Translations under genes and position numbers: made by a program
Assembly (NCBI RefSeq): GCF_014202945.1
Contig: NZ_JACHHW010000001.1
Location: 434,001-498,000, forward strand
Direction: 5' to 3'
Length of the DNA: 64,000 nt
Source: Zhongshania antarctica
Lineage (GTDB): Bacteria > Pseudomonadota > Gammaproteobacteria > Pseudomonadales > Spongiibacteraceae
Part shown: positions 15,957-46,713 of the stretch, in pieces
Numbering within the stretch: position 1 is the first letter of the stretch
How the letters are laid out: each line of letters begins with the position of its first letter
Notes under the pieces: model-generated
What the model saw: the letters and a program-made list of their open reading frames with translations, nothing else
Told to the model about the DNA's origin: nothing
Database searches by the model: none

Positions 15957-16091
15957 CACAGAGCCCTCGTCACATAAAGCCAAAACCGCTTTTGACGCTA
16001 AAATTCCCCGCCACCTTCGCCACATTATAAGCGATGGTTTACAATAGCGTGCTTTGGTCGCCTGACACTTGCGAATATCGGTACTCTATTT

Positions 16092-23400: not shown

Positions 23401-23623
23401 ATCTAGGTTTCCTATGTGCTACCGGCCTTTCGCCGCGCCATACATTCCAGTGGTATTCGTCGCCAAAGGCTCAAGGCCAAAACAGCGACCACATAAATAT
23501 AACATAATTACTGCCAATACTTTACTTCTTGCCCCATTGTGGTAGTTTGCATCTTAGATCTGTTCGGTAAATATAAAAATTATAAGTCCGGCGCGCTTAA
23601 GAGCGCCTTTTCTGGAACTCAAT

Positions 23624-27972: not shown

Positions 27973-29457
27973 ATGGATACGTCGACAACAAAGACTTCTG
28001 CAGAGAACAAAATTGCGTTTCACGAGACCATTGTTATCGGCGCGGGCGTTTCCGGCATTTGCGCGGCAATCAAACTCCGTGAAGCCAAGGTCGATTTTAT
28101 TGTGCTGGAAAAAGCCCGGGAAGTCGGTGGTGTCTGGCGCGAGAACATCTATCCCGACTGCGCCTGCGATGTGCCCTCGGCCTTGTATTCATACTCGTTT
28201 GCGCCAAATCCAAATTGGAGCCGTGTTTTTGCCAGCCAAGACGAAATAAAGGCCTACACCCAAGACACCGTAAAACGCTTTAGTATTAACGAATACATCC
28301 ACTTCAACTGCACCCTTAACAAGTGCGAATGGCAGGAAGCCGATAAATGCTGGCAGCTGGAAACCAGCGCCGGCGTGTATCGTGCACGTTTTGTGATTAT
28401 GGCCTGCGGACCAATGCACATACCGCTGATACCGCATATTAAGGGCATCGAGACCTTTCCGGGCACTTCATTCCATTCTGCAACCTGGGACGCAGATTAC
28501 GATTTAAGCGGCAAGCGCGTTGCCGTCATTGGCTCCGGTGGTTCGGCCATTCAGTTTTTGCCCGCGATCCAGCGCAAGGTAAAGGAGATCACACTATTCC
28601 AACGCACGCCGCCTTGGGTGCTACCCAAAGTCGACACCAAGATATCGGATCGCTGGCGGACTATTTTTACGCGCCTCCCCTTTACCCAAAAATTATTCAG
28701 AAAAATACTTTTTTTCCAGTTTGAATTTCTCAATCACAATCTCAAAAACAAATGGTTCTCCCAACGTTTAGAAACAGCGGCGGTCAAACACATTGCCCGA
28801 GGCGTCAAAGACGAGACCCTGCGAGAAAAACTAAAGCCCGATTATTCACTCGGCTGCAAACGCATACTGCTGTCAAACAACTGGTATAAGGCCCTCGGCA
28901 AGGACAATGTCGAAGTAGTACCAGGCATCACCGAAATTCAAGGCAATAAGCTAATTGCCAGCGACGGTTCCAGCTGCGAGGTTGACGTCATTATTTATGG
29001 CACGGGTTTTGAAGTTTCTGATCCGCCAATTGGCAAACTCATCTATGGTCGCAATGGCCGCAGCCTGTCTAAGCAGTGGGCGGGATCGCCGTCGGCCTAC
29101 CTAGGCACTATGGCCGAAAACTGCCCTAACTTGTTTTTAACCTTAGGCCCAAACCTCTACACCTACACCTCGGCCTTTGTGATTATTGAAGCCCAAGTGA
29201 AATATATTCTCAGCGCCATCACCAAGGCCCGCAAAAAGAAAATTGCGACAATTTCTGTTGATGGCGACACCAGCGCAAAACTAAATAAAGACCTACAAAA
29301 CGCCCTGCAAGGCACGGTTTGGAATAGTGGCTGTGCCAGTTACTTTATTGATAAAACCGGGCGCAATAGCGTGAACTGGCCTTGGACAACCATGAAAATG
29401 CAGCGCCGCTTGCGCAGGATCAAACTCGCCGATTTCCAAATAGAGAAACACCAATGA
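27973..29457 (+). CDS. Flavin-containing (Baeyer-Villiger-type) monooxygenase
   Basis: FAD/NADPH enzyme that probably inserts oxygen next to a ketone, or otherwise oxygenates a hydrophobic substrate. The 494-aa protein has an FAD Rossmann motif (VIGAGVSGICAA, 21-32), GGVWRENIYPDCACDVPS as in cyclohexanone monooxygenase relatives, a Baeyer-Villiger fingerprint variant FPGTSFHSATWD (162-173) where the classical form ends WP, and a second dinucleotide motif VIGSGGSA (185-192). It follows the hydroxylase gene and overlaps the sulfatase start by ATGA, so it belongs to the same operon. N-hydroxylating relatives cannot be excluded. Confidence 0.88.
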   Translation: MDTSTTKTSAENKIAFHETIVIGAGVSGICAAIKLREAKVDFIVLEKAREVGGVWRENIYPDCACDVPSALYSYSFAPNPNWSRVFASQDEIKAYTQDTVKRFSINEYIHFNCTLNKCEWQEADKCWQLETSAGVYRARFVIMACGPMHIPLIPHIKGIETFPGTSFHSATWDADYDLSGKRVAVIGSGGSAIQFLPAIQRKVKEITLFQRTPPWVLPKVDTKISDRWRTIFTRLPFTQKLFRKILFFQFEFLNHNLKNKWFSQRLETAAVKHIARGVKDETLREKLKPDYSLGCKRILLSNNWYKALGKDNVEVVPGITEIQGNKLIASDGSSCEVDVIIYGTGFEVSDPPIGKLIYGRNGRSLSKQWAGSPSAYLGTMAENCPNLFLTLGPNLYTYTSAFVIIEAQVKYILSAITKARKKKIATISVDGDTSAKLNKDLQNALQGTVWNSGCASYFIDKTGRNSVNWPWTTMKMQRRLRRIKLADFQIEKHQ

Positions 29458-32290: not shown

Positions 32291-32307
32291 TGGCACACCA
32301 AGTGTCA
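32291..32307. promoter_or_regulatory. Palindromic operator, site A
   Basis: TGGCAC-ACCAA-GTGTCA, a perfect instance of the 17-bp element TGRCAC-N5-GTGYCA seen at several island promoters. It is 25 bp before the ATG of the DJ-1/PfpI gene, where a bound repressor would block transcription. Confidence 0.7.
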
Positions 32308-32332
32308 TTATATGAGCCGAACGGATCACATC

Positions 32333-33187
32333 ATGAAAAACAAAATAATTATTACCGTCGCAATACTGATTAGCGTTGCAGCCCTAAGCCGTTTAGCCCT
32401 ACCCACAGCCCTCCACAAAGCTGGCCTGCACCCAGACTACAACGGCCCGCGCTATGACATCGCCGCTGGTAAAAAAGCCCTTATCATCGGCAGCAATCAT
32501 GCAACACTGAATGCACCGGGCAAAACCGACGGTGATGCGACGGGCGTCGCCATCTCGGAAATAAGCCACCCCTACTACAGCTTTTTAGAGGCCGGTATGC
32601 AGGTAGACGTTGCCAGCATTAACGGTGGCAATATCCCCGTCGACCCGATGAGTCTCAAGTTTTTTATTATCAGCGAGCACGACGAGCGCTACCTTGAAGA
32701 CCCAACGCTACAAGCAAAAATGCAGAATTCCCTCGCCGTGGCCAACCTTGATATGCGCCAGTACGATGTTGTTTTTATAGCTGGAGGTTGGGGCGCAGCC
32801 TATGATCTCGGCTATTCGCCAGAACTCGCCAGTAAAATAAGCGAGGCCTACTACGCCGAACACCAGCCGGTAATCGCCGGGGTTTGCCACGGCGTGCTCG
32901 GACTCATCAATGCAAAAGACCGCGACGGTCACCTGCTTATAGCGGGCCGCCGGATGACCGGCGTGACCGACAAGCAAATAAAAGAACTGGGCGTTGCCAT
33001 AACACCACTGCACCCCGAAACCGAACTCAAAAAGGCCGGCGCCAAATTTGAGGCTAAAACCGCCTTTCGCGACTTTTTTGCCACGCATGTGGTCGTCGAC
33101 GATGAAAAACGCTTTGTCACTGGTCAGAACCAAAATTCCGGGCTAGAAGCTGCTCATAAGGTGCTCATGCTGCTCGCCCAAAAATAA
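32333..33187 (+). CDS. DJ-1/PfpI-family protein with N-terminal membrane/export signal
   Basis: Class-I glutamine-amidotransferase-like protein of the DJ-1/PfpI/Hsp31 group. From ATG 32333 (MKNKIIITVAILISVAALS) it is 284 aa; upstream in-frame ATGs would add residues encoded across operator A, so I reject them. It has the nucleophile-elbow cysteine in IAGVCHGVLGL, the flexible FIAGGWGAAYDL loop and an Asp-Glu-rich region near the active site. The hydrophobic N terminus suggests export or anchoring, unusual for this mostly cytosolic family. First gene after operator A and probably co-transcribed with the next genes. Confidence 0.85.
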   Translation: MKNKIIITVAILISVAALSRLALPTALHKAGLHPDYNGPRYDIAAGKKALIIGSNHATLNAPGKTDGDATGVAISEISHPYYSFLEAGMQVDVASINGGNIPVDPMSLKFFIISEHDERYLEDPTLQAKMQNSLAVANLDMRQYDVVFIAGGWGAAYDLGYSPELASKISEAYYAEHQPVIAGVCHGVLGLINAKDRDGHLLIAGRRMTGVTDKQIKELGVAITPLHPETELKKAGAKFEAKTAFRDFFATHVVVDDEKRFVTGQNQNSGLEAAHKVLMLLAQK

Positions 33188-33224
33188 GCATGACGATAAA
33201 AAATAAATCTGTTAGGAGATCACT

Positions 33225-33659
33225 GTGAAAAACACCCTAGGCTCAAAAATACTGCGCGCAATTGTGTGTATTCCCGCCATTATTTTTATCGTCACCGGTC
33301 TGCAATTTCTCTTAGATCCGGCAGCAGCGGTAAAGCAGTTCGGTATGCCCTTATTAGACGGTGTCGGTCGCAGCAGCCAAATCGGTGATATGGCAGGGTT
33401 TTTCCTGACCTGCGGACTATGTGTGCTCATTGCCGTGAGTACCGGCAAACGCGTGTGGTTTTATCCCGCCGCAATGCTCACCAGCATCACCGCCATGGGC
33501 AGAATACTGGCATGGCTGCTCCACGACGCCGCGCTGGCGATAAACCTAATTGTCCCCGAAATTATTTTCACCACATTATTTCTGTTTGCCGCCAGCCGTC
33601 TGTCTGCGCCCGGCGCGCCCAGTAACGTCGTCAGCCAAGCCACGTCAGACTCCGAGTGA
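33225..33659 (+). CDS. Small four-helix membrane protein (DUF4345-like)
   Basis: Membrane protein of 144 aa with about four hydrophobic helices (AIVCIPAIIFIVTGLQFLL; MAGFFLTCGLCVLIAV; AAMLTSITAMGRILAWLL; LIVPEIIFTTLFLFAASRL). The pattern resembles DoxX/DUF4345-type proteins. A clear AGGAG precedes the ATG. It sits between the DJ-1 gene and the second sulfatase with short gaps, so it is probably in the same operon. Function unknown. Confidence 0.65.
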   Translation: MKNTLGSKILRAIVCIPAIIFIVTGLQFLLDPAAAVKQFGMPLLDGVGRSSQIGDMAGFFLTCGLCVLIAVSTGKRVWFYPAAMLTSITAMGRILAWLLHDAALAINLIVPEIIFTTLFLFAASRLSAPGAPSNVVSQATSDSE

Positions 33660-33668
33660 GGCCAGCGC

Positions 33669-35504
33669 ATGTTCACTAACACTTTACGACCCCTAGCCAA
33701 CGCCTTGCTGCGCCATACCGTCGCTACCGCGCTTATCGCTGGACTCTGCACGCATGTCTCGGCGACTGTGGCGGCCGAACACACTAGCAAACACCCGAAT
33801 ATTGTCCTGATCTTGGCCGACGACTTAGGCTTTACCGACAGCGCGCCCTACGGCAGCGAAATCAGCACCCCCGCATTATCTGAGCTCGCCGACAACGGCA
33901 TTAAATTCACCAATTACCACACCGCCGCCAACTGCGCGCCGACACGCGCCATGCTCCTGACGGGTGTCGACAATCACCGCGCAGGCGTGTCCAATATTCC
34001 AGAGATGGTGCCCCCAGAACTACAAAGCCACCCCCACTACCAAGGCACCCTCGGCAATAATATTGTGACGGTGGCGACACTGCTTCAAGACGCGGGCTAC
34101 CACACCTACATGGTGGGTAAATGGCACTTAGGCGCCACGCCCGATCTGCTGCCCAGCAGTCGCGGCTTTGAGCGCACCATTACCCTGGCCGACTCCGGCG
34201 CCGACAACTGGGAACAGAAACCCTATTTAGCCATTTACGAAAAAGCCAATTGGTTTGCCGACGGCGAGCGCTACACTCTGCCCGAGGATTTTTACTCCTC
34301 GCAGTTTATCGTCGACAAAACCATCGAATTTATCGCCAGCAATGCGGCAGACAATGCGCCGTTCTTTGCCTACCTTCCTTTTCAAGCGGTACACATGCCG
34401 GTACAAGCCCCACAAGAATTTATCGACCGTTATATGGGCGTGTACGACATGGGCTGGACGGCACTGCGAGAACAGCGCTTACAGCGCGCCGTCGCACTTG
34501 GTATTGTGCCGCAAAGCACTGCGACCACAATTATGAACACCACCAAAGACTGGGAGAAACTCAGCGCTGACCAAAAGCGCTATGAGGCCAAGCGCATGGC
34601 TGTTTACGCCGCCATGGTCGAAGCCATGGACTTCCACATCGCGCGCTTAGTTACGCATTTAAAGCAGACAGGCCAATACGACAATACCATTTTCATTTTT
34701 GCCTCCGACAACGGCAGCGAGGCAACCGGCCCAGCCAATGCCCAAGCCGCAGCACTGCGCTTTGCGCTGCGCCAACAGGGGTATAGCAACGACTACGACA
34801 CCCTCGGCCTCAAGGGCAGCTTTAATTCCCTGAGCCCCAGCTTTGCCAGTGCCTCTGCCTCGCCACTTGCCTATTACAAGTTTCACACTGGCGAGGGCGG
34901 CATGCGGGTGCCACTGATTATTGCCGGTCAACCCATTGCCGCCAAACGGCAAATCAGCCATGCCTTTTCATTTGTTACCGATATCACTCCGACTATTCTG
35001 GAGTTAACGGGGGTAACACCACCCCAAGTAAAGCATGGCAAGCTGCGCTATGGTGGCCGCGAAGTCGAAGCCATGATTGGTCGCAGTTTATTGCCGCTAA
35101 TACGAGGCGACGTTGAGCGTCACTACGGTGACGCCGACGAAGACGCCGTGGGCTATGAACTGGCTGGGCACGCAGCACTGTTTCTTGGCGACTACAAACT
35201 GGTGCTCAACAAGCCGCCGGTCGGTGACAACCAATGGCATTTGTACAATATTGCTACTGATCCCGGCGAGACCACCGACCTAAGTGGCGTTGACGCCCCA
35301 CGCCTACAAAGAATGCTTAATCTGTATCAACAGTACGAAAAGCGCAACGACATCCAAGTGATGCCAGCCGGTTTTGTCGGTGCCCGCCAAGTGGCCCTTA
35401 ATGGTCTGCGCGACCGCTTTGACGCCCAGATTATTATCGGCATTATCACCCTTATCATTCTGACGTCTTTCTACGCAATTTATCGGCAAAACAACTATGA
35501 GTGA
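33669..35504 (+). CDS. Membrane-anchored type I sulfatase (paralogue 2)
   Basis: Close paralogue of the 29454 sulfatase. The 611-aa protein has an N-terminal signal peptide (about 1-36), ADDLGF, a CAPTR formylglycine motif (89-93) where most sulfatases have CAPSR or CTPSR, GKWHLG, SDNGSE, and a C-terminal hydrophobic helix (IIIGIITLIILTSFYAIY), so it is also tethered to the inner membrane facing the periplasm. The two enzymes probably act on related sulfate esters. It is in the operator-A transcription unit and overlaps the DUF1330 gene by 8 bp. Confidence 0.93.
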   Translation: MFTNTLRPLANALLRHTVATALIAGLCTHVSATVAAEHTSKHPNIVLILADDLGFTDSAPYGSEISTPALSELADNGIKFTNYHTAANCAPTRAMLLTGVDNHRAGVSNIPEMVPPELQSHPHYQGTLGNNIVTVATLLQDAGYHTYMVGKWHLGATPDLLPSSRGFERTITLADSGADNWEQKPYLAIYEKANWFADGERYTLPEDFYSSQFIVDKTIEFIASNAADNAPFFAYLPFQAVHMPVQAPQEFIDRYMGVYDMGWTALREQRLQRAVALGIVPQSTATTIMNTTKDWEKLSADQKRYEAKRMAVYAAMVEAMDFHIARLVTHLKQTGQYDNTIFIFASDNGSEATGPANAQAAALRFALRQQGYSNDYDTLGLKGSFNSLSPSFASASASPLAYYKFHTGEGGMRVPLIIAGQPIAAKRQISHAFSFVTDITPTILELTGVTPPQVKHGKLRYGGREVEAMIGRSLLPLIRGDVERHYGDADEDAVGYELAGHAALFLGDYKLVLNKPPVGDNQWHLYNIATDPGETTDLSGVDAPRLQRMLNLYQQYEKRNDIQVMPAGFVGARQVALNGLRDRFDAQIIIGIITLIILTSFYAIYRQNNYE

Positions 35505-35937
35505 AACCCTGCACATCGACTCAATCGAACCCAGTGCCGAACAGCTAAAAGCCCTGCAGGCAATCGATCCAGAAGGCCCGTTTCACTTTGTGAATTTTCT
35601 GGCGTTTAAAGACCACGCTGAATATCCGGCGGAGCACAAACTGGCAAACGCTGCGCTCAGCGGCAGCGACGCCTACGACAAATACGGCGCCGTCGCTCTT
35701 CAACAAATTATTCAACGGGGCGGACGACTCATCACCCTAAATACGGTTGAACTCGAAGTGATTGGATCGCCTGGTCCTTGGCATCGTGTTGCCACCATGG
35801 AGTACCCGAATATTGCGGCCTTTCTTGGAATGATCGCAGACCCTGACTACCAAAAAGCCTTAGTCCATCGCAATGCGGGCCTCAAAGACACCATCGTGTT
35901 AGTGACAAGGCCACAACTCAAAGCGCCCAATGGATAA
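35497..35937 (+). CDS. DUF1330-family protein
   Basis: A 146-aa ferredoxin-fold-like protein resembling DUF1330: PFHFVNFLAFKDHAEY near the N terminus and the typical TMEYPNIAAFLGMIADPDYQ segment later. DUF1330 proteins are small dimeric alpha/beta barrels of unassigned function. It overlaps the sulfatase end by 8 bp and is followed 25 bp later by a GST, so it belongs to the same operon. Confidence 0.75.
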   Translation: MSETLHIDSIEPSAEQLKALQAIDPEGPFHFVNFLAFKDHAEYPAEHKLANAALSGSDAYDKYGAVALQQIIQRGGRLITLNTVELEVIGSPGPWHRVATMEYPNIAAFLGMIADPDYQKALVHRNAGLKDTIVLVTRPQLKAPNG

Positions 35938-35962
35938 GTGGGCTACCACTAGGAGAGAAATA

Positions 35963-36604
35963 ATGATTAAAGTTTATGGTGTACACGGTTCACCCTTCGT
36001 TCGCAAAGTGCTTATTGCGCTAGACATAAAAGGCATTCCCTATGAAGTCGTTCAGCAAATGCCCTTTTCTCGCGACGCCGAATACCTCAAAATCAACCCT
36101 CTCGGCAAAGTGCCCGCGCTGGTAGACGACGATCTCACCCTGTGCGACTCAAAAGTCATTTGCCAGTATTTAGAAGATGCCTATCCCGAGGTAGCACTCT
36201 ACCCCAAAAATCCTAAGGAACGAGCACGCGCACACTGGTACGAAGACCTCTGCGCCGGTCGCGTAGCCGAGCTTGCCTCGGGCATATTCTTCCAGCGCTT
36301 TATGCGGCCCTTTATCCTCAAGCAAGAAGCCGACGAAGTACTGGTCGCCAAAATCATCGACCGCGATCTACCGCCAATGCTCGATTATTTAGAATCGCAA
36401 ATCCCTGCTGACGGCTTTATTTTCGGCGATTTCATGATGGCCGACCTCAGCGTCATCAGTCCCTTTATAAACGCAGGCTACGCTGGTTACCAAGTCGATG
36501 CGGCACGTTGGCCAGCCGTGGCTGGGCTAATTGCGCGAGTAAAACAACAGCCGCAGGTTAAGGCGGTGTTGGAACTTGAGGCTAAGGCTTTGGGATTAGG
36601 ATAA
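35963..36604 (+). CDS. Glutathione S-transferase
   Basis: Cytosolic GST of 213 aa starting at ATG 35963 (MIKVYGVHGSPFVRKVLIAL), preceded by AGGAGAGA; an earlier in-frame ATG lacks a ribosome site. The thioredoxin-like N-terminal domain has HGSPFVRKV (active-site Ser/Phe region), the glutathione-contact NPLGKVPALVDDD and LCDSKVICQYLE. The C-terminal helical domain carries IFGDFMMADLSVISPF. Last gene before a strong hairpin. Substrate unknown; it may detoxify an oxidised intermediate. Confidence 0.88.
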   Translation: MIKVYGVHGSPFVRKVLIALDIKGIPYEVVQQMPFSRDAEYLKINPLGKVPALVDDDLTLCDSKVICQYLEDAYPEVALYPKNPKERARAHWYEDLCAGRVAELASGIFFQRFMRPFILKQEADEVLVAKIIDRDLPPMLDYLESQIPADGFIFGDFMMADLSVISPFINAGYAGYQVDAARWPAVAGLIARVKQQPQVKAVLELEAKALGLG

Positions 36605-36610
36605 TTTATT

Positions 36611-36670
36611 AAACCGGCTAAAGTCTCATCTTTTACTTCTATGTAAAGATTGAGACCTTAGCCAGTTTGC
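36611..36670. terminator. Very long inverted repeat between convergent GST and SGNH genes
   Basis: A roughly 26-bp inverted repeat with two mismatches and two bulges: the left arm starts AAACCGGCTAAAGTCTCA, the right arm ends TGAGACCTTAGCCAGTTT, with a 6-nt loop near 36637-36643. It contains the TAA stop of the SGNH gene. Probably a bidirectional terminator. Its TAAGGTCTCA core also occurs at 26991-27000. Confidence 0.65.
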
Positions 36671-37374
36671 TCATCCACGCCCCGTTGAATAAGCTCAGCA
36701 ACACAATCACCCCACACCGTGTAAGCCTCGGCACCTGGATGAAAGCCATCTGCCGCGATCGCGCTAAGATCACCCGAATACGGAATTGGCACGTAAATAC
36801 ACGAACGCTCACTTTCAGCCACAGCGCTCATTAGCACATTGAATTGATTCGCTCGCAAACCCAACCACCACCGCAATGGATTGGGCAGCGCAGGGAACAG
36901 ATGCATAGGTGGAATGCTGGACAGATAGACCCTACGCACACCGAACTTCTCAGTGAGCAGTTGCACGATTAGCCGCACATTTCCAGCCCAAGCGCTCGCC
37001 CGAGTGAGCCCGGTCACATCGTTAACACCAATAGAAACCACCGCGCTATCAAACTCTTCCTGCGGCATTGCATGGAGCCTGTCCAGTAATTGACGAGAGG
37101 TGTCACCGGATTGAGCAATAAGCTTCCAGCTCACTGCATTCGTTTTACTCAGTGGTGCGACAAGTCTGCCGGATAGCGCCCGCTGCTGATGATCAACCCC
37201 AACACCCGCTGCGGCAGAGTCGCCAACAATGAGTAGACTTAGCCCTTTACCCTGCCCCACTTGCCCATGGCGATGCCCCTCCGGCTCAGGAAGTTTTGGT
37301 GTCACTCTTTTAACGTACTTACCTTGAACAAAAAGAACCGGGCCGATCAGGATGAATCCAAGATGATATAGCAC
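36658..37374 (-). CDS. SGNH/GDSL-family hydrolase
   Basis: Esterase-like hydrolase of 238 aa. Block I is LLIVGDSAAAGVGV (catalytic Ser), the Gly block lies in LIAQSGDT, block III is VSIGVNDVTGL (Asn) and block V is ADGFHPGAEAY (Asp and His), so the full SGNH set is present. The N terminus is hydrophobic (LGFILIGPVLFVQG), suggesting a membrane anchor. Possible roles are lipid, carbohydrate-ester or thioester hydrolysis; not decidable here. The stop codon is inside the long hairpin. Confidence 0.87.
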   Translation of the reverse strand: MLYHLGFILIGPVLFVQGKYVKRVTPKLPEPEGHRHGQVGQGKGLSLLIVGDSAAAGVGVDHQQRALSGRLVAPLSKTNAVSWKLIAQSGDTSRQLLDRLHAMPQEEFDSAVVSIGVNDVTGLTRASAWAGNVRLIVQLLTEKFGVRRVYLSSIPPMHLFPALPNPLRWWLGLRANQFNVLMSAVAESERSCIYVPIPYSGDLSAIAADGFHPGAEAYTVWGDCVAELIQRGVDEQTG

Positions 37375-37451
37375 TTACTTTCCCAAAAAAGCGAACAGTG
37401 AATTGAAATGACGCCGACAATATATCACCGTCGCGGAAATCGGCCCCAATA

Positions 37452-39134
37452 TCAATTCGGCCAATAAACCGTTTCGTCACTTGGCGTCACCGGCTCTGCC
37501 AAGGTCTTATCTATCGCCACCGGTATCTCAGCAACATAGGGATAAAGGACTGGGGTTCTACCGGCTTGATGTTCTTGCAGCATCGCGGTGAGCTTAGCCA
37601 CGACGTCTGGCTGCTGAGCGGCTAAATTAATTTGCTCGGTGGGGTCTACGGACAAGTCGAATAGCCACTGCCTTTTGGGGTTCTCGGATACTTGCAGTTT
37701 CCAGTCTTTATGGCGCACAACCTGATAGTAGCCGCTCTGCCAAAACAAGGTGTCTCTTGTCCACTCTGCCGCGGGCGCGCCGCTTGCGTCAACTCCCGTC
37801 GCTAACGGCAATAAGTTTTCACCGTCGATGACGCGATCTTCCGGCAACTTAGCTTGGGCGGCAGCGACCAAGGTTGGCAAAAAATCGATATGGGCAGCTG
37901 GGGTGTCGACTTTGGTGTCTCGCGGGATGTGTGCTGGCCAGCGCATGAATAAGGGCACGCGAATACCGCCTTCAAACATAGTGAGTTTCCACCCGCGATA
38001 CGGGGCATTAATATCTGGTATGCCGATGTAACCGGCGCCGCCGTTATCGCTGGAGAACACTACAATGGTGTTGTCAGAAAGGCCTTCTTCATTCAGCGTT
38101 GCTAAAATGCGGCCAACACTGCGGTCTACTGCCCGTACCATCGCGGCGTATACCCTTGCCCGGTGAGGCTTAATGTCGCCAACGGCTTCATAGTCTTCAC
38201 GGGTTGCCTGCAAGGGTGTGTGCGCACCCCAATGAGCGAGGTAGAGAAAGAAGGGACGATTTTTATTGGCCTTGATAATTTTTATCGATTCATCGGTCCA
38301 GTAATCGGTAAGGTAGCGCTTAGGTTCAAAGACCGGCCCGCCATCATTAAAAGCGGCAGCGTAGCGCATTTTTGCCCACAGAAATTGGTCGATTGGATCA
38401 AAGTCGACTTTGGCATTGACCACATCGGGATGGTCAACCGGCAGATACAAGCCGCTGTGCATTAATAAACTTTGCTCAAAGCCCTGCTCCTCTGGGCTAA
38501 AACCTTTGCCTCGACCCAGATGCCATTTACCAATATGAGCGGTGTAGTAACCGCGATCGCGCAGGATTTCGGCAAGGGTAATTTCAGAACTCGGCAGGCC
38601 TTGCTCGTCAAAGGATGGGATTTTGTTCGCACCGGCTTTATTGTAAATGCTCGGCGGCAGGCCGTTATCATGGGACGAGGCAATCATGGTTGCCATTGCC
38701 CCCATACCGTCTGGTGTCGGCGTAAATTCAAATCCGGTACGTGTTGGGTAGCGGCCGGTTAAGAGCATGGCCCGCGACGGCGCGCAGGTCCCTGCGCCGG
38801 AATAGGCCTGGCTAAAGTTAGCGCCACTGGCGGCCAGTTCATCAATATTGGGGGTTTGCACCTGGCCGTTGGCCAGACCGCCGCCATAGGTAGATATGTC
38901 GTTAATACCTAGGTCATCGGCCAAAATCACAATGACATTGGGCGGACGATCTTGGCTCGCCGCGTCTGCCTGCGCTGGCCCCTGCTGCCAGTGTATGTCG
39001 CGGTTGGGCGCAACCTCATAAGCTCTGGCAGTCTGGAACTTCACCAAGGCCAACATAAGGTCGATTCGGTTCAGCCAAGCGATGCCCAATGCGGCGGGAA
39101 TCACGATAAAGGAGGCAATTATTATTTTTTTCAT
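37452..39134 (-). CDS. Sulfatase (arylsulfatase-type, third in island)
   Basis: Sulfatase of 560 aa, more distant from the other two. It has an N-terminal hydrophobic signal or anchor (1-20), LADDLGINDIS for metal binding, the formylglycine motif CAPSR (117-121) followed by AMLLTGRYPTRTGF, GKWHLG and SSDNGGAGY. There is no C-terminal helix. It is on the minus strand, about 120 bp downstream of operator B. The YPTRTGFE region is typical of arylsulfatase A-like enzymes; substrate unknown. Confidence 0.93.
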   Translation of the reverse strand: MKKIIIASFIVIPAALGIAWLNRIDLMLALVKFQTARAYEVAPNRDIHWQQGPAQADAASQDRPPNVIVILADDLGINDISTYGGGLANGQVQTPNIDELAASGANFSQAYSGAGTCAPSRAMLLTGRYPTRTGFEFTPTPDGMGAMATMIASSHDNGLPPSIYNKAGANKIPSFDEQGLPSSEITLAEILRDRGYYTAHIGKWHLGRGKGFSPEEQGFEQSLLMHSGLYLPVDHPDVVNAKVDFDPIDQFLWAKMRYAAAFNDGGPVFEPKRYLTDYWTDESIKIIKANKNRPFFLYLAHWGAHTPLQATREDYEAVGDIKPHRARVYAAMVRAVDRSVGRILATLNEEGLSDNTIVVFSSDNGGAGYIGIPDINAPYRGWKLTMFEGGIRVPLFMRWPAHIPRDTKVDTPAAHIDFLPTLVAAAQAKLPEDRVIDGENLLPLATGVDASGAPAAEWTRDTLFWQSGYYQVVRHKDWKLQVSENPKRQWLFDLSVDPTEQINLAAQQPDVVAKLTAMLQEHQAGRTPVLYPYVAEIPVAIDKTLAEPVTPSDETVYWPN

Positions 39135-39252
39135 TGAGCGATCCTTTTGCCAAATCGAACAGTGCTATGCCACTAAACCTTAGTTTGTACTGGTGACTTA
39201 GGACTATCTGTTCCACGCTTGGCGTTAAATTAAAACAGCGACAGCATTATTA

Positions 39253-39269
39253 TGGCACTTATAGTGTCA
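39253..39269. promoter_or_regulatory. Palindromic operator, site B
   Basis: TGGCAC-TTATA-GTGTCA, a perfect match to the shared 17-bp element. It lies 119 bp upstream of the minus-strand sulfatase start and between that gene and the end of the cytochrome gene. Confidence 0.7.
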
Positions 39270-39338
39270 TTTTATTTAAGTACTGTAAACACCCCTAGAA
39301 ATCCGCCCAGAGGCGAGCGTCTAATTTATCATCCGTCA

Positions 39339-41447
39339 CTATTTGATTAGGGCGTTTCCGGCGTCGCGACCACTGCGCTTTTGCAGGTAAAGCGATAGCA
39401 AATCGCTCGTTAAGGGCGAGGCATGGCCTCGACTCGCGACGGTCTTTAACACGGTAATCGCCTCGTCGAGTTGCCCGCGATTTTCCAAAGCAACCGCATA
39501 GCCATAGGCGAACTCAGGGCGATGGGGTGCGAGATCAAAAGCCTGCTTTAAACCGGTCAGCGCCCGCGCATACTCTTTTGCCCGAACCCAATACAAGCCA
39601 AGTTGATACGCCGCATCCGCAGATTTAACATCTGCCTGCTGAGCCTCTTGCAACCAACTCAATTCCGCATCACTGCCCCTTGTCAGCATGGCCAGTTGCA
39701 GATACGGGTACACAAACGCCGCATCCAATTTAATTGCCTGCAGGTAGAGCTCACCGGCTTCCGCCATACGCCCTCGCGCTAATTGGTAGTTGGCAAAATT
39801 AGCGGCAATTTGTGGGCTGTCCCGGTGGGTGTTCATCAGCGACTCATACTCCGTAAACAGCGCTGCCAGCTGAGCCGACTGCGCTTGGCTCAGCTGCGCG
39901 GGTGCGGTACCGGCCAGCACCGGAGCCAATTCCATTCGCAACATTTTACTGTTGTCTGCCAATAGCGCGGACAGGCGGCGCCAGCGCTCCGCACTTGGCG
40001 CTTGCGCAAATGCCCGAACGCCAGCTGCTCTCACCAGCGGTGATGGGCTTTGAAGTTTGCTGAGCAGCACATTTTGCTGGGCATAATCGTAGGGTGACAG
40101 CTGCGCCAATAAACTGGCCTCACGTATTGGCGACAAGGTATCAGCAATGCTTTGGTAAAGTGCCATATTAGCCGCCCCGCCGTCCGCCAACGTGGCAAAA
40201 TCCCGAGTTTTAATCTGCGATGGACTCGCGACTTTGGGTAAGCGCTCCGACAACTTCGCCATTGGCATTTCAGCGTGGCAGCTGCGGCAGGCATCGGGAC
40301 TGCCCAATGCCTTGCTTAAAGCCGGATCTGGAATCACAAAGCGATGATCCCGACGCGCATCGACGCCCATATATACGGTTGCGGGCATATGGCAGTCAAC
40401 ACAGCCCGCCGAGCCAGTCTGGTGGCGGTGATGGCTGGGCACGGCAAAGGTATCGGCCTTGTGGCATTGCAGGCACACGCCGTCGCCCTCGGCCCGCAGT
40501 TTCGCACTGTGGGGCTCGTGGCAATTGCTGCACACTACGCCTGCGGCATGCATACGGCTCTGCAGGAATGAACCTAGCTCAAAGACTTCATCGCGAATTT
40601 GGCCGTCTTGGTAATAAAAGGGCTGGTGCGGTAAAACCGGACTAACATGGTCAAAGAGTTCAGCCTTAGGGTGCCAGCTACCAATTTGCTCACTGCGAGT
40701 GTGGCATTGGGCGCAGCTTGAAAGCTGCGCGCCCACCGGCGGCGATTCACGACTAGCGATGGCTTGGTCTTGATCCCAAGCCCATTGTCCCCCGTCTTTT
40801 AAGCTGGCGGCAAAGCCAGCATTTAGCTTATCGAGCTTAGCGCCAGCCGCCCAAGCGAGGTGTGCTTTTGCGTCGCCATGACAGGCCGCGCAGGAAACAT
40901 TCACTTCATCAAAGCGCGTTGCGAAACTATCGCTGGCTGGGTCATAGGCCTTTACTAAATTGGTAGAGTGACAGCTCGCACAGGAGGTATTCCAAGTAAA
41001 ACCGGGGTGGTCCCAGTTAAGATCGGATTCCAGCGCATACCAGCGCTGGCCGCCTTCAAATTGCGGTCGCGTATCCCAGGCAACGGGAATCGCCTGGTAG
41101 CGGCCTCTTGGCAAACGCGCAAGATATTGTTGCAGAGGCGTGAAACCAAATACGTAGTCGATAGCATAGGTTTCGGCTGTTGTGCCCTCACCGATACTCA
41201 CTTGATAGCCGAGTTCGCCAATCGTAAAGCGAAACGCTAAGTCCTTATAGTGGGTAACGGAGCCGTCAAACACCCCCGCAACGGTTTCCTGCGTCGCGGG
41301 CAACATGGCCTTGGCGTGGTGGGACTGTTCCCAGAGTGCGACTTCTTTTGCATGGCAAGCCCCACAAGCGCTATCGGCCACGGCCAAGGGCGCGTATAAA
41401 ATAGCGAAAAGACACAATATTTTTAATCGTAAGCAAGGGGTATTCAA
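39339..41447 (-). CDS. Octaheme c-type cytochrome fused to TPR-like repeats
   Basis: Secreted multiheme protein of about 702 aa. I prefer the TTG start at 41447, with AGAGGA 9 nt upstream and a signal peptide directly after it (LRLKILCLFAILYAPLAVADS); ATG at 41528 would add 27 residues before the signal. Eight CxxCH sites are present in the first half: CGACH, CASCH, CAACH, CAQCH, CSNCH, CLQCH, CVDCH, CRSCH. The layout recalls the cytochrome c554/nitrite-reductase-like multiheme group. The second half has helical HEAT/TPR-like repeats (MAEAGELYLQAIKLDAAFVY; ALTGLKQAFDLAPHRPEFAY). Electron-transfer or redox enzyme role inferred; partner unknown. Confidence 0.85.
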   Translation of the reverse strand: MNTPCLRLKILCLFAILYAPLAVADSACGACHAKEVALWEQSHHAKAMLPATQETVAGVFDGSVTHYKDLAFRFTIGELGYQVSIGEGTTAETYAIDYVFGFTPLQQYLARLPRGRYQAIPVAWDTRPQFEGGQRWYALESDLNWDHPGFTWNTSCASCHSTNLVKAYDPASDSFATRFDEVNVSCAACHGDAKAHLAWAAGAKLDKLNAGFAASLKDGGQWAWDQDQAIASRESPPVGAQLSSCAQCHTRSEQIGSWHPKAELFDHVSPVLPHQPFYYQDGQIRDEVFELGSFLQSRMHAAGVVCSNCHEPHSAKLRAEGDGVCLQCHKADTFAVPSHHRHQTGSAGCVDCHMPATVYMGVDARRDHRFVIPDPALSKALGSPDACRSCHAEMPMAKLSERLPKVASPSQIKTRDFATLADGGAANMALYQSIADTLSPIREASLLAQLSPYDYAQQNVLLSKLQSPSPLVRAAGVRAFAQAPSAERWRRLSALLADNSKMLRMELAPVLAGTAPAQLSQAQSAQLAALFTEYESLMNTHRDSPQIAANFANYQLARGRMAEAGELYLQAIKLDAAFVYPYLQLAMLTRGSDAELSWLQEAQQADVKSADAAYQLGLYWVRAKEYARALTGLKQAFDLAPHRPEFAYGYAVALENRGQLDEAITVLKTVASRGHASPLTSDLLSLYLQKRSGRDAGNALIK

Positions 41448-41593
41448 CAGACCTTTTCCTCTGTACGCGACAGTCGCTTTGTCGCACTCGAACTTAGCAC
41501 CACTATAGTCACTGCAGATAGATGCCATAAACGTATTATTAATTCGCTTTTAACGGCGCTGAAGCGGTAGCGGCCATCGCTCCCGCATTATAT

Positions 41594-41610
41594 TGACACA
41601 GAATGTGCCA
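41594..41610. promoter_or_regulatory. Palindromic operator, site C
   Basis: TGACAC-AGAAT-GTGCCA, a perfect match to the shared 17-bp element read on the opposite strand. It lies between the divergent cytochrome (41447) and GST (41655) genes. It overlaps a TTGACA -35-like hexamer with TTATTT 17 bp later, placing it in the plus-strand promoter. Confidence 0.7.
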
Positions 41611-41654
41611 AAATGTTATTTTCCAGCGACGATTATCGCTCACAAGGCGCAAGC

Positions 41655-42803
41655 ATGAGTACACCTTATAAGCTTTACGGCATCCCCGCCTCGCTGTATA
41701 CCGCGAAAGCGCGTAGCTACTTGCGCAAGCAAAAAATCGACTTTGTGGAGTATGCGGTATCTGATCCGCACTACCAAAAAAACATTATCCCGCAGCTTGG
41801 GCGAATGATTATGCCCGTACTTGAAGCGCCAAACGGCGAGATCATTCAAGACAGCGCAGACATTATTCGTTACATCGAAACAGTGGACGCAAGCTTATCG
41901 CCAAGCCTGCCTAAAACACCGCTATTACAAGCTGTTGCCCATCTTTTTGAGTTATACGGCGGTGAGGGTTTACTCCGCCCCGCCATGCACTATCGCTGGA
42001 GTTTCGACGAGTTAAATTTACACTACCTCCATTCAGAATTCGCTTGCTTGGCCCCACCTGGCACCGACGATGCGAGCTACCAACAGATTTTTGACTTCGG
42101 CAGTGGCCTCATGCGCAAGGCCGCGCATTCCTTTGGGGTAAATGAAAATAGCGCGCCGCTTATTGAATCTTCCTACCGGGAGTTTTTAGATCTATTCTCA
42201 GCCCATTTGCGGCTACACCCCTATTTACTCGGCGCGAAGCCGACGCTGGGCGACTACGCTTTTATGGGGCCGCTCTACGCTCACTTGTACCGCGACCCTA
42301 AGCCCGGCCAATTGATGCGTCAGCATGCACCGCTGGTGGCGCGCTGGGTAGAGCGAATGAATGCCCCCGAGAATAACTGGGCAGACCACTGTGCAGACCA
42401 AGCGGAGTTTGAAGTCGACAATGAACTGCCAGAAACCCTCAACGCACTAATGCATTACATCGCGACAGACTTCCTGCCCGAGATATCTGCGCACATTAAT
42501 TTTGCTAACAACTGGCTTGCCGAAAGGCCAGATCTTAAATCAGGCAGCAATGGCTGCGACAAGCCCAGTCAACGCTTTATAGGCAATGCCGAATTTGCAT
42601 GGCGGGGCACAAAGCTCAGCACAGCGGTACTGCCATACCGCTTTTATTTATTACAAAATTTGCAGGATCATTTTGACTCGGCGCCGAAGCCAGATAAAGC
42701 CCTCATCCAAAACGTTTTCAAAGCCTGCGGCTTAGCTGACTTACTTACACTGCGAGTAGCACGGCGTGTTGAGCGTCACAATCATCTAGAGGTGTGGGGG
42801 TAA
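41655..42803 (+). CDS. Large GST-like protein with C-terminal extension
   Basis: A 382-aa protein, start ATG 41655 (MSTPYKLYGIPASLYTAKAR); an upstream ATG at 41613 is three bases past operator C and less likely. The N-terminal thioredoxin-like domain (MPVLEAPNGEIIQDSADIIRY) and a GST-like helical domain (LLGAKPTLGDYAFMGPLYAH) are clear. About 130 extra residues at the C terminus have no match I recognise (HINFANNWLAERPDLKSG to the end). Usual GSTs are near 210-230 aa. Glutathione use is plausible but unproven. Confidence 0.78.
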   Translation: MSTPYKLYGIPASLYTAKARSYLRKQKIDFVEYAVSDPHYQKNIIPQLGRMIMPVLEAPNGEIIQDSADIIRYIETVDASLSPSLPKTPLLQAVAHLFELYGGEGLLRPAMHYRWSFDELNLHYLHSEFACLAPPGTDDASYQQIFDFGSGLMRKAAHSFGVNENSAPLIESSYREFLDLFSAHLRLHPYLLGAKPTLGDYAFMGPLYAHLYRDPKPGQLMRQHAPLVARWVERMNAPENNWADHCADQAEFEVDNELPETLNALMHYIATDFLPEISAHINFANNWLAERPDLKSGSNGCDKPSQRFIGNAEFAWRGTKLSTAVLPYRFYLLQNLQDHFDSAPKPDKALIQNVFKACGLADLLTLRVARRVERHNHLEVWG

Positions 42804-42893
42804 ACCCCTCCACTCAGTTTGCACCGCGAAATAAATACGTAACGCAATTATTTTAGCTAAAAGTAATTTACCCGCAATTTTGGAGTCACAATA

Positions 42894-43577
42894 ATGATCG
42901 ACCTTTATACCGCCCCCACGCCCAACGGTCACAAAGCCTCCTGCACCTTGGAAGCCCTTGGCTTTGAATACAACACTCACTTTGTGAACATCACCGAGGG
43001 CGAACAGAAAAAGCCGGCATTTTTAGCGATTAATCCTAACGGGCGAATTCCCGCCATTGTCGACCGCGACTTGGGCGATTTCCCGATTTTCGAATCTGGT
43101 GCCATTATGATTCACCTCGCCGAAAAGGCAGGACGCTTACTGCCAACAGACGCGAAAGGCCGTGCAATGGTCATGCAATGGCTTATGTTTCAAATGGGCG
43201 GCGTAGGGCCAATGATGGGCCAAGCGAATGTATTTTTTCGCTATTTCCCTGAAAAAATACCTGCTGCAATTGATCGTTACCAAAATGAAAGTCGCCGCTT
43301 ATTCGAAGTATTAGACAAGCGCCTGAGCGAAAGCCAGTGGCTAGCCGACGATTACTCGATAGCCGATATCGCCAATTGGTGCTGGGTGCGCACCCACAAA
43401 TGGTCTGGGGTATCTGTCGACGGCCTCGATCATTTAGGACGCTGGCTAAATACCATGCGCGAGCAGCCCGGCATGCAAAAAGGCATTGAGGTGCCGTTTA
43501 GTCTCGATAATTTATTAGAAGACAAAGACGCGCAGAAGAAATTTACCGACAACGCAAATAAGCTCTTACAAAAATAG
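42894..43577 (+). CDS. Glutathione S-transferase, YfcG/nu-class-like
   Basis: A 227-aa GST with N-terminal [20 protein letters not shown], the nu-class pattern of an Asn following Thr-Pro, and [13 protein letters not shown] and [12 protein letters not shown] for glutathione contact. The C-terminal domain has [17 protein letters not shown]. It resembles E. coli YfcG, a disulfide reductase with no catalytic Cys. It follows the larger GST by 90 bp and may be co-transcribed from site C. Confidence 0.87.
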
Positions 43578-43612
43578 GGGCGCGGCCAATTAGTGTCGTA
43601 CCCCAGTCAAAT

Positions 43613-43629
43613 AGACAGTAACAATGTCA
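43613..43629. promoter_or_regulatory. Degenerate palindromic operator, site E
   Basis: AGACAG-TAACA-ATGTCA keeps the symmetrical core GACA-N7-TGTC of the shared operator and matches 9 of 12 consensus positions. It lies about 100 bp before tetR, as expected for weak autoregulation. Confidence 0.35.
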
Positions 43630-43726
43630 CTAGTTACAATGCCCTAAATTCAAAGCCAGCGTTGCAATACAGCGTCTCATTGCGCCTATCGCGGCTCCAA
43701 CAATCATACTCGCTAAGCGATTAATT

Positions 43727-44317
43727 ATGCCTAAAGACGCAACACCAGTAGAAAGTGATGGCCGCCGTCAACGCACCGAGCGCAGCCGCAGCGCCATCAT
43801 TAATGCCGCCCTCGAATTAATCGAAGAAGGCGTACTCATCGCGACGGCTCAACAAATTACCGACCGTGCCAACGTCGGCATTCGCACCTTTTTTCGCCAC
43901 TTTGAAGACATGGGCGCCCTCGCTCAAGCGGTTGATGAAAGTATTCGCGGGCAATACGAAGCGGCCATGCTCGACGCCGACCGCAGCGGCACACTTGAGG
44001 AGCGCATTCTGCATGCAGTGGAGCGTCACGCCGACGTCTACGAGCAAAACTACAATATAATCTTAGCGACGACTGCCCAGCGCTGGCGCCTTGAAGTATT
44101 GCAGCAAAACTACGCCCGCGTGCAAAAAGGCCTGCGCAAAGATCTTGATAATTGGCTACCGGAACTCAAGACCATTGCCTCGTCACAACGCGAAGCCATA
44201 GATGCTATTGCCTCTTTTGAAATGTGGCACCGGCTTCGAGAACATCAGGGCCTAAGCGTCAAAACCTGTATAGAGATAATTAACGGCCTGCTGCTAAACC
44301 TGACCCAAAGCGCTTAA
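43727..44317 (+). CDS. TetR-family transcriptional regulator
   Basis: A 196-aa repressor-type protein. The N-terminal HTH is at about residues 17-65 (RSAIINAALELIEEGV, TAQQITDRANVGIRTFFRHF), followed by a ligand-binding helical domain. It sits in the middle of the genes that carry the shared palindrome and has a degenerate copy upstream, so it is my first candidate for the operator-binding regulator. That assignment is inference; the LysR and AraC proteins and regulators outside the window are alternatives. Confidence 0.93.
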   Translation: MPKDATPVESDGRRQRTERSRSAIINAALELIEEGVLIATAQQITDRANVGIRTFFRHFEDMGALAQAVDESIRGQYEAAMLDADRSGTLEERILHAVERHADVYEQNYNIILATTAQRWRLEVLQQNYARVQKGLRKDLDNWLPELKTIASSQREAIDAIASFEMWHRLREHQGLSVKTCIEIINGLLLNLTQSA

Positions 44318-44381
44318 ACACCTCGACTGCAATATTTGGTCGTAAGGTGTAAGCCCTATTCGCAAAACAAGGATCATATAT

Positions 44382-45146
44382 ATGAGCACTAATCTGTTTG
44401 ATTTAACTGGAAAAGTGGCGCTGGTTACCGGCGCAAGCCGTGGCATCGGCGAAGCCATTGCCCGACTTTTGGCCGAGCAAGGGGCCCATGTTATTGTCTC
44501 TAGCCGCAAAATTGACGACTGCCACACTGTCGCCAATAGCATTATTGCCGCTGGCCACAGCGCTGAAGCCTTGGCCTGCCACGTTGGTGATATGGAACAA
44601 ATTGCCGATATTTTTCAAACAATTCGTAAGCAACACGGCAAGCTCGATATCCTAGTGAATAACGCTGCCGCCAACCCCTACTTCGGCGACGTGCTCGATA
44701 CCGACTTGGCGGCTTACAATAAAACGGTAGACGTAAATATACGCGGCTATTTCTTTATGAGCGTCGAAGGCGGCAAAATCATGCGCGACAACGGCGGTGG
44801 CGTCATTATTAACACCGCCTCAGTCAACGCGCTACAGCCTGGTGATATGCAGGGCATTTACTCTATTACCAAGGCCGCCGTGGTCAATATGACCAAGACC
44901 TTTGCCAAAGAATGTGCAAAACACAATATCCGCTGCAACGCGATATTGCCTGGTTTAACAAAAACAAAATTCGCCAGCGCACTTTTTACTCACGATAAAA
45001 TATACGAAGCCGCAATGGAAAAAATCCCCATGCGTCGCCACGCCGAACCACAGGAAATGGCCGGCACCGTGCTGTATTTGGCGTCCAACGCCAGCAGCTA
45101 TACCACGGGCGAGTGCATTGTTGTCGACGGTGGTCTAACACTTTAA
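44382..45146 (+). CDS. Short-chain dehydrogenase/reductase
   Basis: Classical SDR of 254 aa, NAD(P)-dependent oxidoreductase. Visible motifs: TGASRGIGE (cofactor, about residues 17-25), NNAAANP, the catalytic Ser in INTASVNA, and YSITKAAVV with Tyr and Lys. Ends with TTGECIVVDGGLTL, typical of the family. Follows tetR by 64 bp on the same strand. Substrate unknown, an alcohol or ketone intermediate is likely. Confidence 0.93.
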   Translation: MSTNLFDLTGKVALVTGASRGIGEAIARLLAEQGAHVIVSSRKIDDCHTVANSIIAAGHSAEALACHVGDMEQIADIFQTIRKQHGKLDILVNNAAANPYFGDVLDTDLAAYNKTVDVNIRGYFFMSVEGGKIMRDNGGGVIINTASVNALQPGDMQGIYSITKAAVVNMTKTFAKECAKHNIRCNAILPGLTKTKFASALFTHDKIYEAAMEKIPMRRHAEPQEMAGTVLYLASNASSYTTGECIVVDGGLTL

Positions 45147-45158
45147 ACAAGCAAGGGA

Positions 45159-45186
45159 TTCGCCGCGCTGTGACAAGCGCGGCGAA
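45159..45186. terminator. Hairpin between convergent SDR and DsbA-like genes
   Basis: Perfect 11-bp inverted repeat TTCGCCGCGCT / AGCGCGGCGAA with a 6-nt loop, just before the DsbA-like gene's stop. No T-tract; probably a bidirectional terminator. Confidence 0.6.
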
Positions 45187-45188
45187 AC

Positions 45189-46562
45189 TCAGCCAGCCTT
45201 AAGCAAACGCTGAATTTCGCGGCTAAATAACCAAAGGCGATCTTGACCCCACAGCGCCAACACTTGATTACCGTTCTTATCTAACAAACGAAAACTCGGC
45301 ACGCCCCATAAACCAGCGTCGTACATAGCCAGTCGATTTTGTTCGACCATCGCTTCCCAGCGCGTATCCGCCAATTGCTCCTTAGCCACCTGCCAGTCCA
45401 ATCCCGCCTGCTCAACAACCTCCTGCAAACCACTCAATTTATTAGTATTCACCCCTTCTGCAAACGCCAAACGCAAAAAGCTGGATAACAGAGCATTGCC
45501 CTTACCCTGCTCACACGCCCAGGGATAGATTGCATAACAGCGCCGCACTGGGTCTCCAATAGGGTCGTAAATAGGACCGAATGGCACGCCGCTCGCCCGC
45601 GCCTCACGACCGCAATCGGTCATAATATAAGCCCCCTTGACCCGCGTTGCCGGAACACCGCGCATGACCATTGGCAATACCGGCCGCACTACAAGCTTAA
45701 CGCCACAGTCTGCGGCCAGTTTTAGTGCCCGATCAAAGATGATGGCGGTATAAGGGCTACGCAAGGAGGGATAAATTTCAAAGGTTAGCGAGCCATTATC
45801 TTTTAGCTCACCGATTTCTACCGCTTTACGTGGTGCTAACGGCGCGGCATTTGGCTGCTTATCGACGCCGAGCGCCGCCAGTCGGGCTTCTAAATGGTAA
45901 AGACGGTCAACGCCCCAATACCACTCCTTGCCATAGTAAAACATCGCGCCCGAATAATGACCGAGCACAGCGCGTTGCGCATTACCCTGCTGAATACGCG
46001 CCGCGGTGTCACTATGGTTAGCAGCACCCAAACGCTCAGCAAGCGCGGCCAGCGTCGTCTGATCGTGATTCCATAGCGCTGTGCTCACGTCAGCGAGGCA
46101 ATCAATAAATCCCTGAGCAGTTTGCTTAGCCAGTATCGCCTGTGCTTGATCCACAAGCGCCTTAGGCGGCTGGGTGTTGCCATTGGGGAAATGCAAACCG
46201 TAGTGTGGCGCAATCTGAATGGCATCTTGCCGAGCAAGGTCACTCAGCAATTGGGGCTCGGGGGCGTTTGCGTCTTGTGACGCGGATACCAAATGGCAGA
46301 CCAACGCCACGTCGTAGCGCTTACTGATTGCCGACAATAACTGCGCGCTGAGGTGGCTGTAGCCATCATCAACTTGATGAAAGTACTCCACAATATGTGG
46401 AGAGCCAGCGCTAAGACGACGGCGCTCAAATTTAGCGCGCAGTTTAGCTTGGTAGCGCAAACTCGCGAGTCGCGACATAAACAGTGTTGAGGTCAGCCAG
46501 CGATATAATCGGCTCGGTTCAGAGCTTGATACGCCGCCTTGATTTTTAAAATTTTCAGACAT
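45189..46562 (-). CDS. Tandem DsbA-like (HCCA-isomerase/kappa-GST-type) thioredoxin-fold protein
   Basis: A 457-aa protein with two thioredoxin-fold domains: a first (about 50-235) beginning PHIVEYFHQVDDGYSHLSAQ and a second (about 255-450) beginning LTFEIYPSLRSPYTAIIFD and ending VPSFRLLDKNG. The second, with FEIYPSLRSPY and GVPSF, is the DSBA/2-hydroxychromene-2-carboxylate isomerase type. No CxxC is seen, so it is more likely a glutathione-dependent isomerase/transferase than a disulfide oxidase. Fusion of two such domains is unusual. It lies near the three GSTs. Confidence 0.75.
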   Translation of the reverse strand: MSENFKNQGGVSSSEPSRLYRWLTSTLFMSRLASLRYQAKLRAKFERRRLSAGSPHIVEYFHQVDDGYSHLSAQLLSAISKRYDVALVCHLVSASQDANAPEPQLLSDLARQDAIQIAPHYGLHFPNGNTQPPKALVDQAQAILAKQTAQGFIDCLADVSTALWNHDQTTLAALAERLGAANHSDTAARIQQGNAQRAVLGHYSGAMFYYGKEWYWGVDRLYHLEARLAALGVDKQPNAAPLAPRKAVEIGELKDNGSLTFEIYPSLRSPYTAIIFDRALKLAADCGVKLVVRPVLPMVMRGVPATRVKGAYIMTDCGREARASGVPFGPIYDPIGDPVRRCYAIYPWACEQGKGNALLSSFLRLAFAEGVNTNKLSGLQEVVEQAGLDWQVAKEQLADTRWEAMVEQNRLAMYDAGLWGVPSFRLLDKNGNQVLALWGQDRLWLFSREIQRLLKAG

Positions 46563-46696
46563 GGTCGACCTCTTTCGTCCATCGTCACTTTATAGCGCGA
46601 CAATCATTATTATTTATTCAAAAAGCGATTTTTAATACACCACGTAAATCGGCCATTGACTCTTTTCTTTACAAATGACATGTTACCCGCAAGTAT

Positions 46697-46713
46697 TGAC
46701 ACTCACAATGCCA
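46697..46713. promoter_or_regulatory. Palindromic operator, site D (one mismatch)
   Basis: TGACAC-TCACA-ATGCCA matches the shared element at 11 of 12 conserved bases. It overlaps a TTGACA hexamer and lies 49 bp before the metallo-hydrolase ATG. Confidence 0.6.

Follow-up and report, generated by a model that had tools for sequence, protein, structure and literature searches.

Accessory island and predicted operators

The subject of this work is a stretch of 64,000 nucleotides of Zhongshania antarctica (contig NZ_JACHHW010000001.1 of assembly GCF_014202945.1, positions 434,001 to 498,000), henceforth the window, in which an accessory island brings together genes for sulfatases, glutathione S-transferases (GSTs) and a TetR-type regulator, with repeated copies of a palindrome placed in front of several of them. 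Sequence comparison leads us to consider that this palindrome is very probably the operator of the TetR-type protein, and that a single catabolic-type regulon would be placed under its control.

Five sites had been described in a first-pass annotation, three perfect copies of TGRCAC-N5-GTGYCA, one with a single mismatch and one degenerate, all preceding genes of the island, and we find them all where it had placed them, at 32291, 39253 and 41594 for the perfect copies, 46697 for the single mismatch and 43613 for the degenerate form. Three perfect copies in the window are to be compared with 0.02 expected, a number that none of 100 shuffles reached, and the whole 3.85-Mb genome holds only four, so that three of its four copies are in the window. 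The fourth, at C1:507815, lies inside an AraC-type open reading frame (ORF), some 65-81 bases past the called start, and scores below 8 bits in a 27-bp matrix whose training left out both the window and the sister genome G004. With this held-out matrix the five sites score 33.1 bits (39253), 30.7 (41594), 29.6 (32291), 25.3 (46697) and 11.7 (43613), and a sixth site appears at 23500 (16.1 bits), flanked by a thioesterase ORF and by the ORF of the TonB receptor, which begins at 23624. Taking the window with 20 kb more, six sites of at least 8 bits are observed, against a mean of 0.43 and a maximum of 3 in 30 block shuffles. A second, AT-flanked model, R1, was trained on 38 sites of other genomes, none of which belongs to the family; run with filters off, it reports the four strongest sites at E values of 3e-5 to 3e-3 and the sixth one, as 23502, at E 0.23. 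The 43613 site is the weakest of the five. That no further copy would be present in the other gaps holds for the perfect form, of which the genome has no other intergenic example, and has to be amended for the weaker site at 23500.

The first perfect predicted operator (32291..32307; R1 E 9e-4) leads an operon of the forward strand, made of genes for a DJ-1/PfpI-family protein (PF01965; 32333..33187), a DUF4345-like membrane protein (33225..33659; weak PF14248 match, below the curated cut-off), the second copy of sulfatase A (PF00884; 33669..35504), a DUF1330 protein (PF07045; 35497..35937) and a GST (GST_N_3; 35960..36604). The longest DJ-1 ORF, which opens at GTG 32225, has a 5' extension that includes the site; this lies upstream of ATG 32312 and ATG 32333, either of which is in our reading a likelier start than the GTG; the coordinates given here follow our choice of the latter. 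A further copy of sulfatase A, at 29382-31265, sits in an operon-like run after a Baeyer-Villiger-type monooxygenase. The top-scoring site of the window, a perfect predicted operator (39253..39269; R1 E 2.7e-5), is found upstream of the gene for sulfatase B (PF00884; 37452..39134, reverse strand), the closest solved structure of which is a family S1-19 sulfatase. The third perfect one (41594..41610; R1 E 1.2e-4) lies between the gene for an octaheme cytochrome c with TPR repeats (39339..41528, reverse strand; eight CXXCH motifs by reading) and that for a long divergent GST of 382 amino acids (GST_N_3/GST_C; 41655..42803, forward strand). There follow, on the forward strand, the gene for a GST resembling glutathione-dependent disulfide oxidoreductases (42894..43577), the degenerate predicted operator (43613..43629), one mismatch away from TGRCA-N7-TGYCA, and tetR itself (PF00440; 43727..44317), whose product is the proposed binder of the operator. 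The remaining predicted operator of the first-pass set (46697..46713; R1 E 2.8e-3), one mismatch from the pattern given there, separates the gene for a DsbA-like protein of 457 amino acids (PF01323; 45189..46562, reverse strand) from the divergent gene for a metallo-beta-lactamase-fold (MBL) hydrolase (PF00753; 46763..47830, forward strand). The sixth, weaker operator-like site (23500..23516) stands before the divergent thioesterase gene and before that of a TonB-dependent receptor recognised by ORF reading (23624..25987, forward strand), a probable member of the regulon which, at 35% identity, did not cluster with the TonB families of relatives.

Two further observations may be recorded here. 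The product of 41655-42803 belongs to a GST-like family of 350-390 amino acids with a long C-terminal part, whose best match in PDB reaches only E 0.002; several distinct GST-like families of this length are led by sites in relatives. Beyond the 3' end of the window (C1:498001-518000; L117:7450-8700 and 16047-17462) are two P450-like genes, an acyl-CoA ligase-like gene, two AraC-type genes and a TonB receptor-like gene, all named by ORF reading, with no operator calls there.

Form and conservation of the predicted operator

In its full form the predicted operator is a dyad of about 27 bp, TATAATGRCAYWWWWWRTGYCATTATA, where 7 bases separate the half-sites TGRCA and TGYCA and where the flanks extend the symmetry to that length. 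The comparative set consists of 55 loci (0.92 Mb) around relatives of the 43727 TetR, fetched from named genomes. TGRCA-N7-TGYCA is present there in 82 copies, where permuted half-sites average 3.8, the highest of these controls, at 31, being TGACR, a pattern that overlaps the motif; any other spacing from 3 to 12 yields 3 to 15 copies, and 13 of the copies with the 7-base spacing stand within 250 bp upstream of tetR. The more demanding TGRCAY-N5-RTGYCA is found 62 times and its reversed control not once, with a spacer whose A/T content is 84%, compared with 45% for the loci as a whole, and its density, 67 per Mb, compares with about 1.4 per Mb in nine genus-mates that lack the TetR. Of 100 core matches, 81 are upstream of ORFs, and a matrix made from gammaproteobacterial loci retrieves 13 sites in five of six alphaproteobacterial loci, several of these being close relatives.

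In the comparison with the sister genome G004, 1 of 72 arm positions has changed, versus 76 of 925 in the rest of the gaps (p 0.018), 33 of these 76 changes coming from the DJ-1 gap alone, where the arms of the 32291 site are the same and 33 of the 108 other positions have changed. The arms at 46697 and the site at 23500 are unchanged, and 43613 shows one arm change, T to C at a Y position. In plain counts over whole genomes, TGRCA-N7-TGYCA exceeds its reversed control in each of the 21 family genomes, whether they have the TetR or not, and TGRCAY-N5-RTGYCA occurs 2-10 times per genome in the nine genus-mates that lack the TetR, a frequency similar to that of TetR carriers. As these counts do not discriminate, the AT-flanked model was needed for what follows.

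Association with the TetR-type regulator

The 21 family genomes comprise five with an F-type TetR, four with a V-type (V for F in the region of the recognition helix) and 12 in which no TetR match reaches E ≤ 1e-15. At E ≤ 0.5, R1 matches 5 of the 21, and these are exactly the five with the F-type recognition helix (Fisher 5e-5), no match being returned from the 12 genomes without TetR or from the four V-type ones. In 293 genomes of the order, R1 at E ≤ 0.01 matches 20 of 27 that have the TetR and none of 266 that have not; relaxing the threshold to E ≤ 0.1 gives 24 of 27 and 40 of 266. Some of the genomes with TetR may overlap with those used for training, which, as it concerns only that group, cannot explain the zero in the other. 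Sites of at least 14 bits precede tetR in 26 of 60 loci. In 9 of 13 stretches fetched away from tetR, a site immediately precedes a gene that belongs to the same families, one of the nine counting only through the broad SDR family. Within the comparative loci, the TetR is also the sole recognised regulator among the 23 gene families found in at least five loci, families which were named by Pfam for the most part, five by reading sequences only, with cluster 13 having no Pfam match. Because the operator concentrates around relatives of this TetR, precedes tetR in many loci and follows the TetR in genome scans, the protein at 43727, which the first-pass annotation had put forward as first candidate, is very probably the regulator. 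The wider proposal of a regulon under a single regulator agrees with the held-out matrix, with conservation and with the genome scans: the same operator stands before several transcription units, is conserved in relatives and is tied to one regulator.

Sites of at least 20 bits are present in 44 of 51 F-type loci and in 2 of 7 V-type loci (p 0.003), a comparison that is confounded by descent, the V types coming from few clades. V-type relatives mostly lack strong sites, and the search for a replacement operator in seven of them (G005, G007, G008, G016, L072, L075 and L088) revealed no shared dyad upstream of tetR. As for the 43727 protein itself, it matches TetR_N (PF00440) at 28.4 bits for a cut-off of 24, and its predicted structure is all-helical (mean pLDDT 85.8, pTM 0.63). 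The top 50 Foldseek rows for this model are regulators of the TetR kind with probabilities of 0.97-1.00, but with TM-scores of 0.28-0.45, root mean square deviations of about 16-23 and none at E 0.001. By sequence, the closest PDB chain is 3aqs_A (E 3e-5, residues 10-73).

Gene families led by the predicted operator

Operator and TetR are encountered together again in records that bear the names Halieaceae, Spongiibacteraceae and Rhodobiaceae. Among the gene families led by sites, the highest proportions belong to a small membrane protein, read as DUF1330-like without a Pfam match (15/15), to DUF4345 (17/18), to the long GST, family GST376 (24/26), to DJ-1 (15/17) and to sulfatase B (21/24); then come MBL (21/25), TonB (8/10), the DsbA-like protein (19/24), sulfatase A (20/27), DUF1330 (10/14), the disulfide oxidoreductase-like GST (9/13) and TetR (35/60). 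The family of the GST encoded at 35960..36604 is site-led in 4 of 9. For comparison, 50 of 548 singleton genes are led by a site. The long GST, at E ≤ 1e-40, is encoded in 4 of the 21 family genomes, all with an F-type TetR, and all six of its loci carry the site. Site-led operons of relatives add enoyl-CoA hydratases, acyl-CoA dehydrogenases, amidohydrolases, pyrroloquinoline quinone enzymes and others. The earlier idea that the regulon joins sulfatases, a multiheme cytochrome and glutathione enzymes is upheld for the first and the last of these; the octaheme cytochrome, led by a site in 2 of 5 loci, those of the window and of its near-identical sister, is a doubtful member.

Formylglycine-generating enzymes are of a kind that matures sulfatases. 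In the Rhodobiaceae record L084, such an enzyme (PF03781; 3376-4362) is encoded directly 3' of a tetR that has a site upstream. The genome of Z. antarctica has a single PF03781 match, far from the island (G000:C3:304303-305040), and a modest one (80 bits in a frame of 565 amino acids).

Weighing the evidence

Several observations weigh against a regulon of the TetR as it is drawn here. The looser forms of the palindrome are not enriched, neither in the window (11 matches with at most two mismatches, 7.4 expected) nor in the genome (27 with at most one mismatch, 32 for the reversed control), and R1 with filters off does not report 43613 at E ≤ 1. Members are unevenly covered: within the window, no separate operator serves the sulfatase A copy at 29382-31265, the proportion of site-led genes is low for SDR (4/10), GST213 (4/9), the octaheme cytochrome (2/5) and WS/DGAT (1/5), and the counts per locus and per family include loci used for training the matrix. 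In the F-type genome G009, the 4-kb locus around the MBL gene is devoid of sites; as other MBL relatives without a site also occur, MBL alone does not discriminate. With respect to the regulator, 34 of 60 loci lack a 14-bit site upstream of tetR, three of the 27 TetR-carrying genomes of the order (G049, G066 and G088) give no match, 40 of the 266 TetR-less genomes have a weak match at E ≤ 0.1, which in 37 of them is a single site, and the V-type genomes G008 and G016 each have one 25-bit matrix site near tetR, neither of which R1 reports.

The lack of enrichment of looser patterns is what chance repetition of a palindrome would predict, but chance is ruled out by the three perfect copies and the comparative counts, and contradicted by the held-out matrix as well. 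One might rather imagine that the operator serves some other regulator, whose gene lies elsewhere, the TetR merely sharing the island. The many loci without a site before tetR would fit, islands could carry a shared external operator, and the binding of the TetR to its operator is predicted only; yet this other regulator would need to have the very distribution of the TetR, as attested by the absence of any match at E ≤ 0.01 in the 266 genomes that lack it, sites on other contigs also track TetR presence, and no other regulator was recognised in the families of at least five loci. We regard this explanation as improbable. A less remote one, which we still hold to be unlikely, keeps the TetR on its operator and makes of it an activator, as a minority of TetR proteins are, or gives the regulon detoxification as its main purpose. 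GSTs of several families are indeed the most consistently site-led genes. Against detoxification, the site-led operons of relatives also hold sulfatases, TonB receptors, enoyl-CoA hydratases, acyl-CoA dehydrogenases and other catabolic enzymes. Against activation, about half of 162 oriented sites (49%) have a -10-like hexamer starting 4 bases before the core and overlapping the dyad, which fits occlusion of the promoter; as the hexamer is part of the dyad itself, it is only compatible with this view. The operator of a TetR-type repressor, with a regulon that is most likely catabolic, remains the explanation that we prefer.

Proposed mechanism and substrate

TetR proteins generally act as dimers that occupy a dyad at the promoter and block transcription until a ligand releases them. 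By analogy, we infer that a dimer of the 43727 protein would sit on the 27-bp dyad at the promoters of the DJ-1/DUF4345/sulfatase/DUF1330/GST operon, of sulfatase B, of the long GST, of the MBL and DsbA-like pair and of tetR, as well as, probably, at that of the TonB receptor, and that it would keep them silent until an intracellular ligand sets it free. In many relatives, tetR would control itself in this way. A hydrophobic sulfate ester is the substrate that the enzymes suggest: the TonB receptor would help its uptake, the sulfatases would take off the sulfate, and the core would be processed by glutathione-dependent enzymes and, in relatives, by coenzyme A (CoA)-dependent ones.

A polysaccharide utilisation locus was considered and set aside, since no glycoside hydrolase or polysaccharide lyase is present among the 17 island proteins scanned; none is found either among the 25 displayed of the 73 families of relatives. 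Steroids come to mind, as Spongiibacteraceae and Halieaceae include steroid degraders according to PMC5790920. Steroid genes were tried as a discriminating partner of the regulon and found unsupported, KshA_C proteins being a background trait, present in 19 of 21 family genomes regardless of the TetR, which agrees with the steroid degradation reported for this family; the genome of Z. antarctica has KshA-type proteins of its own. As KshA_C occurs irrespective of the TetR, steroid sulfates are only a guess. A more ambitious and quite tentative proposal would be a regulon devoted, in marine Gamma- and Alphaproteobacteria, to sulfated lipids such as sulfates of sterols or of other isoprenoids, where sulfatases would free the core, long divergent GSTs and further glutathione enzymes would activate or detoxify it, CoA enzymes would degrade it and a single TetR would sense the desulfated or CoA-bound intermediate and turn all of these genes on or off.

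Relation to known systems and significance

Systems in which a TetR protein goes with a repeated dyad operator are already known. KstR and KstR2, TetR-family repressors of cholesterol catabolism in mycobacteria, similarly control sets of catabolic genes, many promoters of which carry a repeated dyad; the operator and the gene content of the island differ from theirs, and the TetR_N domain, at the N-terminus, is the sole sequence link that we found. The Pseudomonas aeruginosa arylsulfatase 1hdh is clearly related to sulfatase A (E 4e-110). The open-licence full texts of PMC yielded no description of the operator, of the gene set or of the TetR subgroup, nor any TetR-controlled arylsulfatase regulon with GSTs, and the part of PMC12487129 that is available has nothing on the operator regulon. 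Operator and gene set appear to be new.

What is gained is an operator and a defined gene set for a TetR subgroup, together with a shared role, open to test, for sulfatases, divergent GSTs and DUF1330, DUF4345, MBL and DJ-1 proteins, each of which is otherwise annotated in isolation; the operator model also allows regulon calls in other genomes. PMC10100682 interprets the 87 sulfatases found in six Halieaceae strains as a potential to degrade sulfated polysaccharides. These enzymes and those of relatives of the island share a bacterial family and, with the island itself, the domain PF00884, but the island sulfatases have GSTs and CoA enzymes as partners. The regulon suggests that some marine sulfatases act on small hydrophobic sulfate esters rather than on polysaccharides. 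Were the sulfated-lipid proposal true, it would link organic sulfate esters to the steroid-degrading marine bacteria, and it would explain part of the OM60/NOR5 sulfatases that are now read as directed to polysaccharides.

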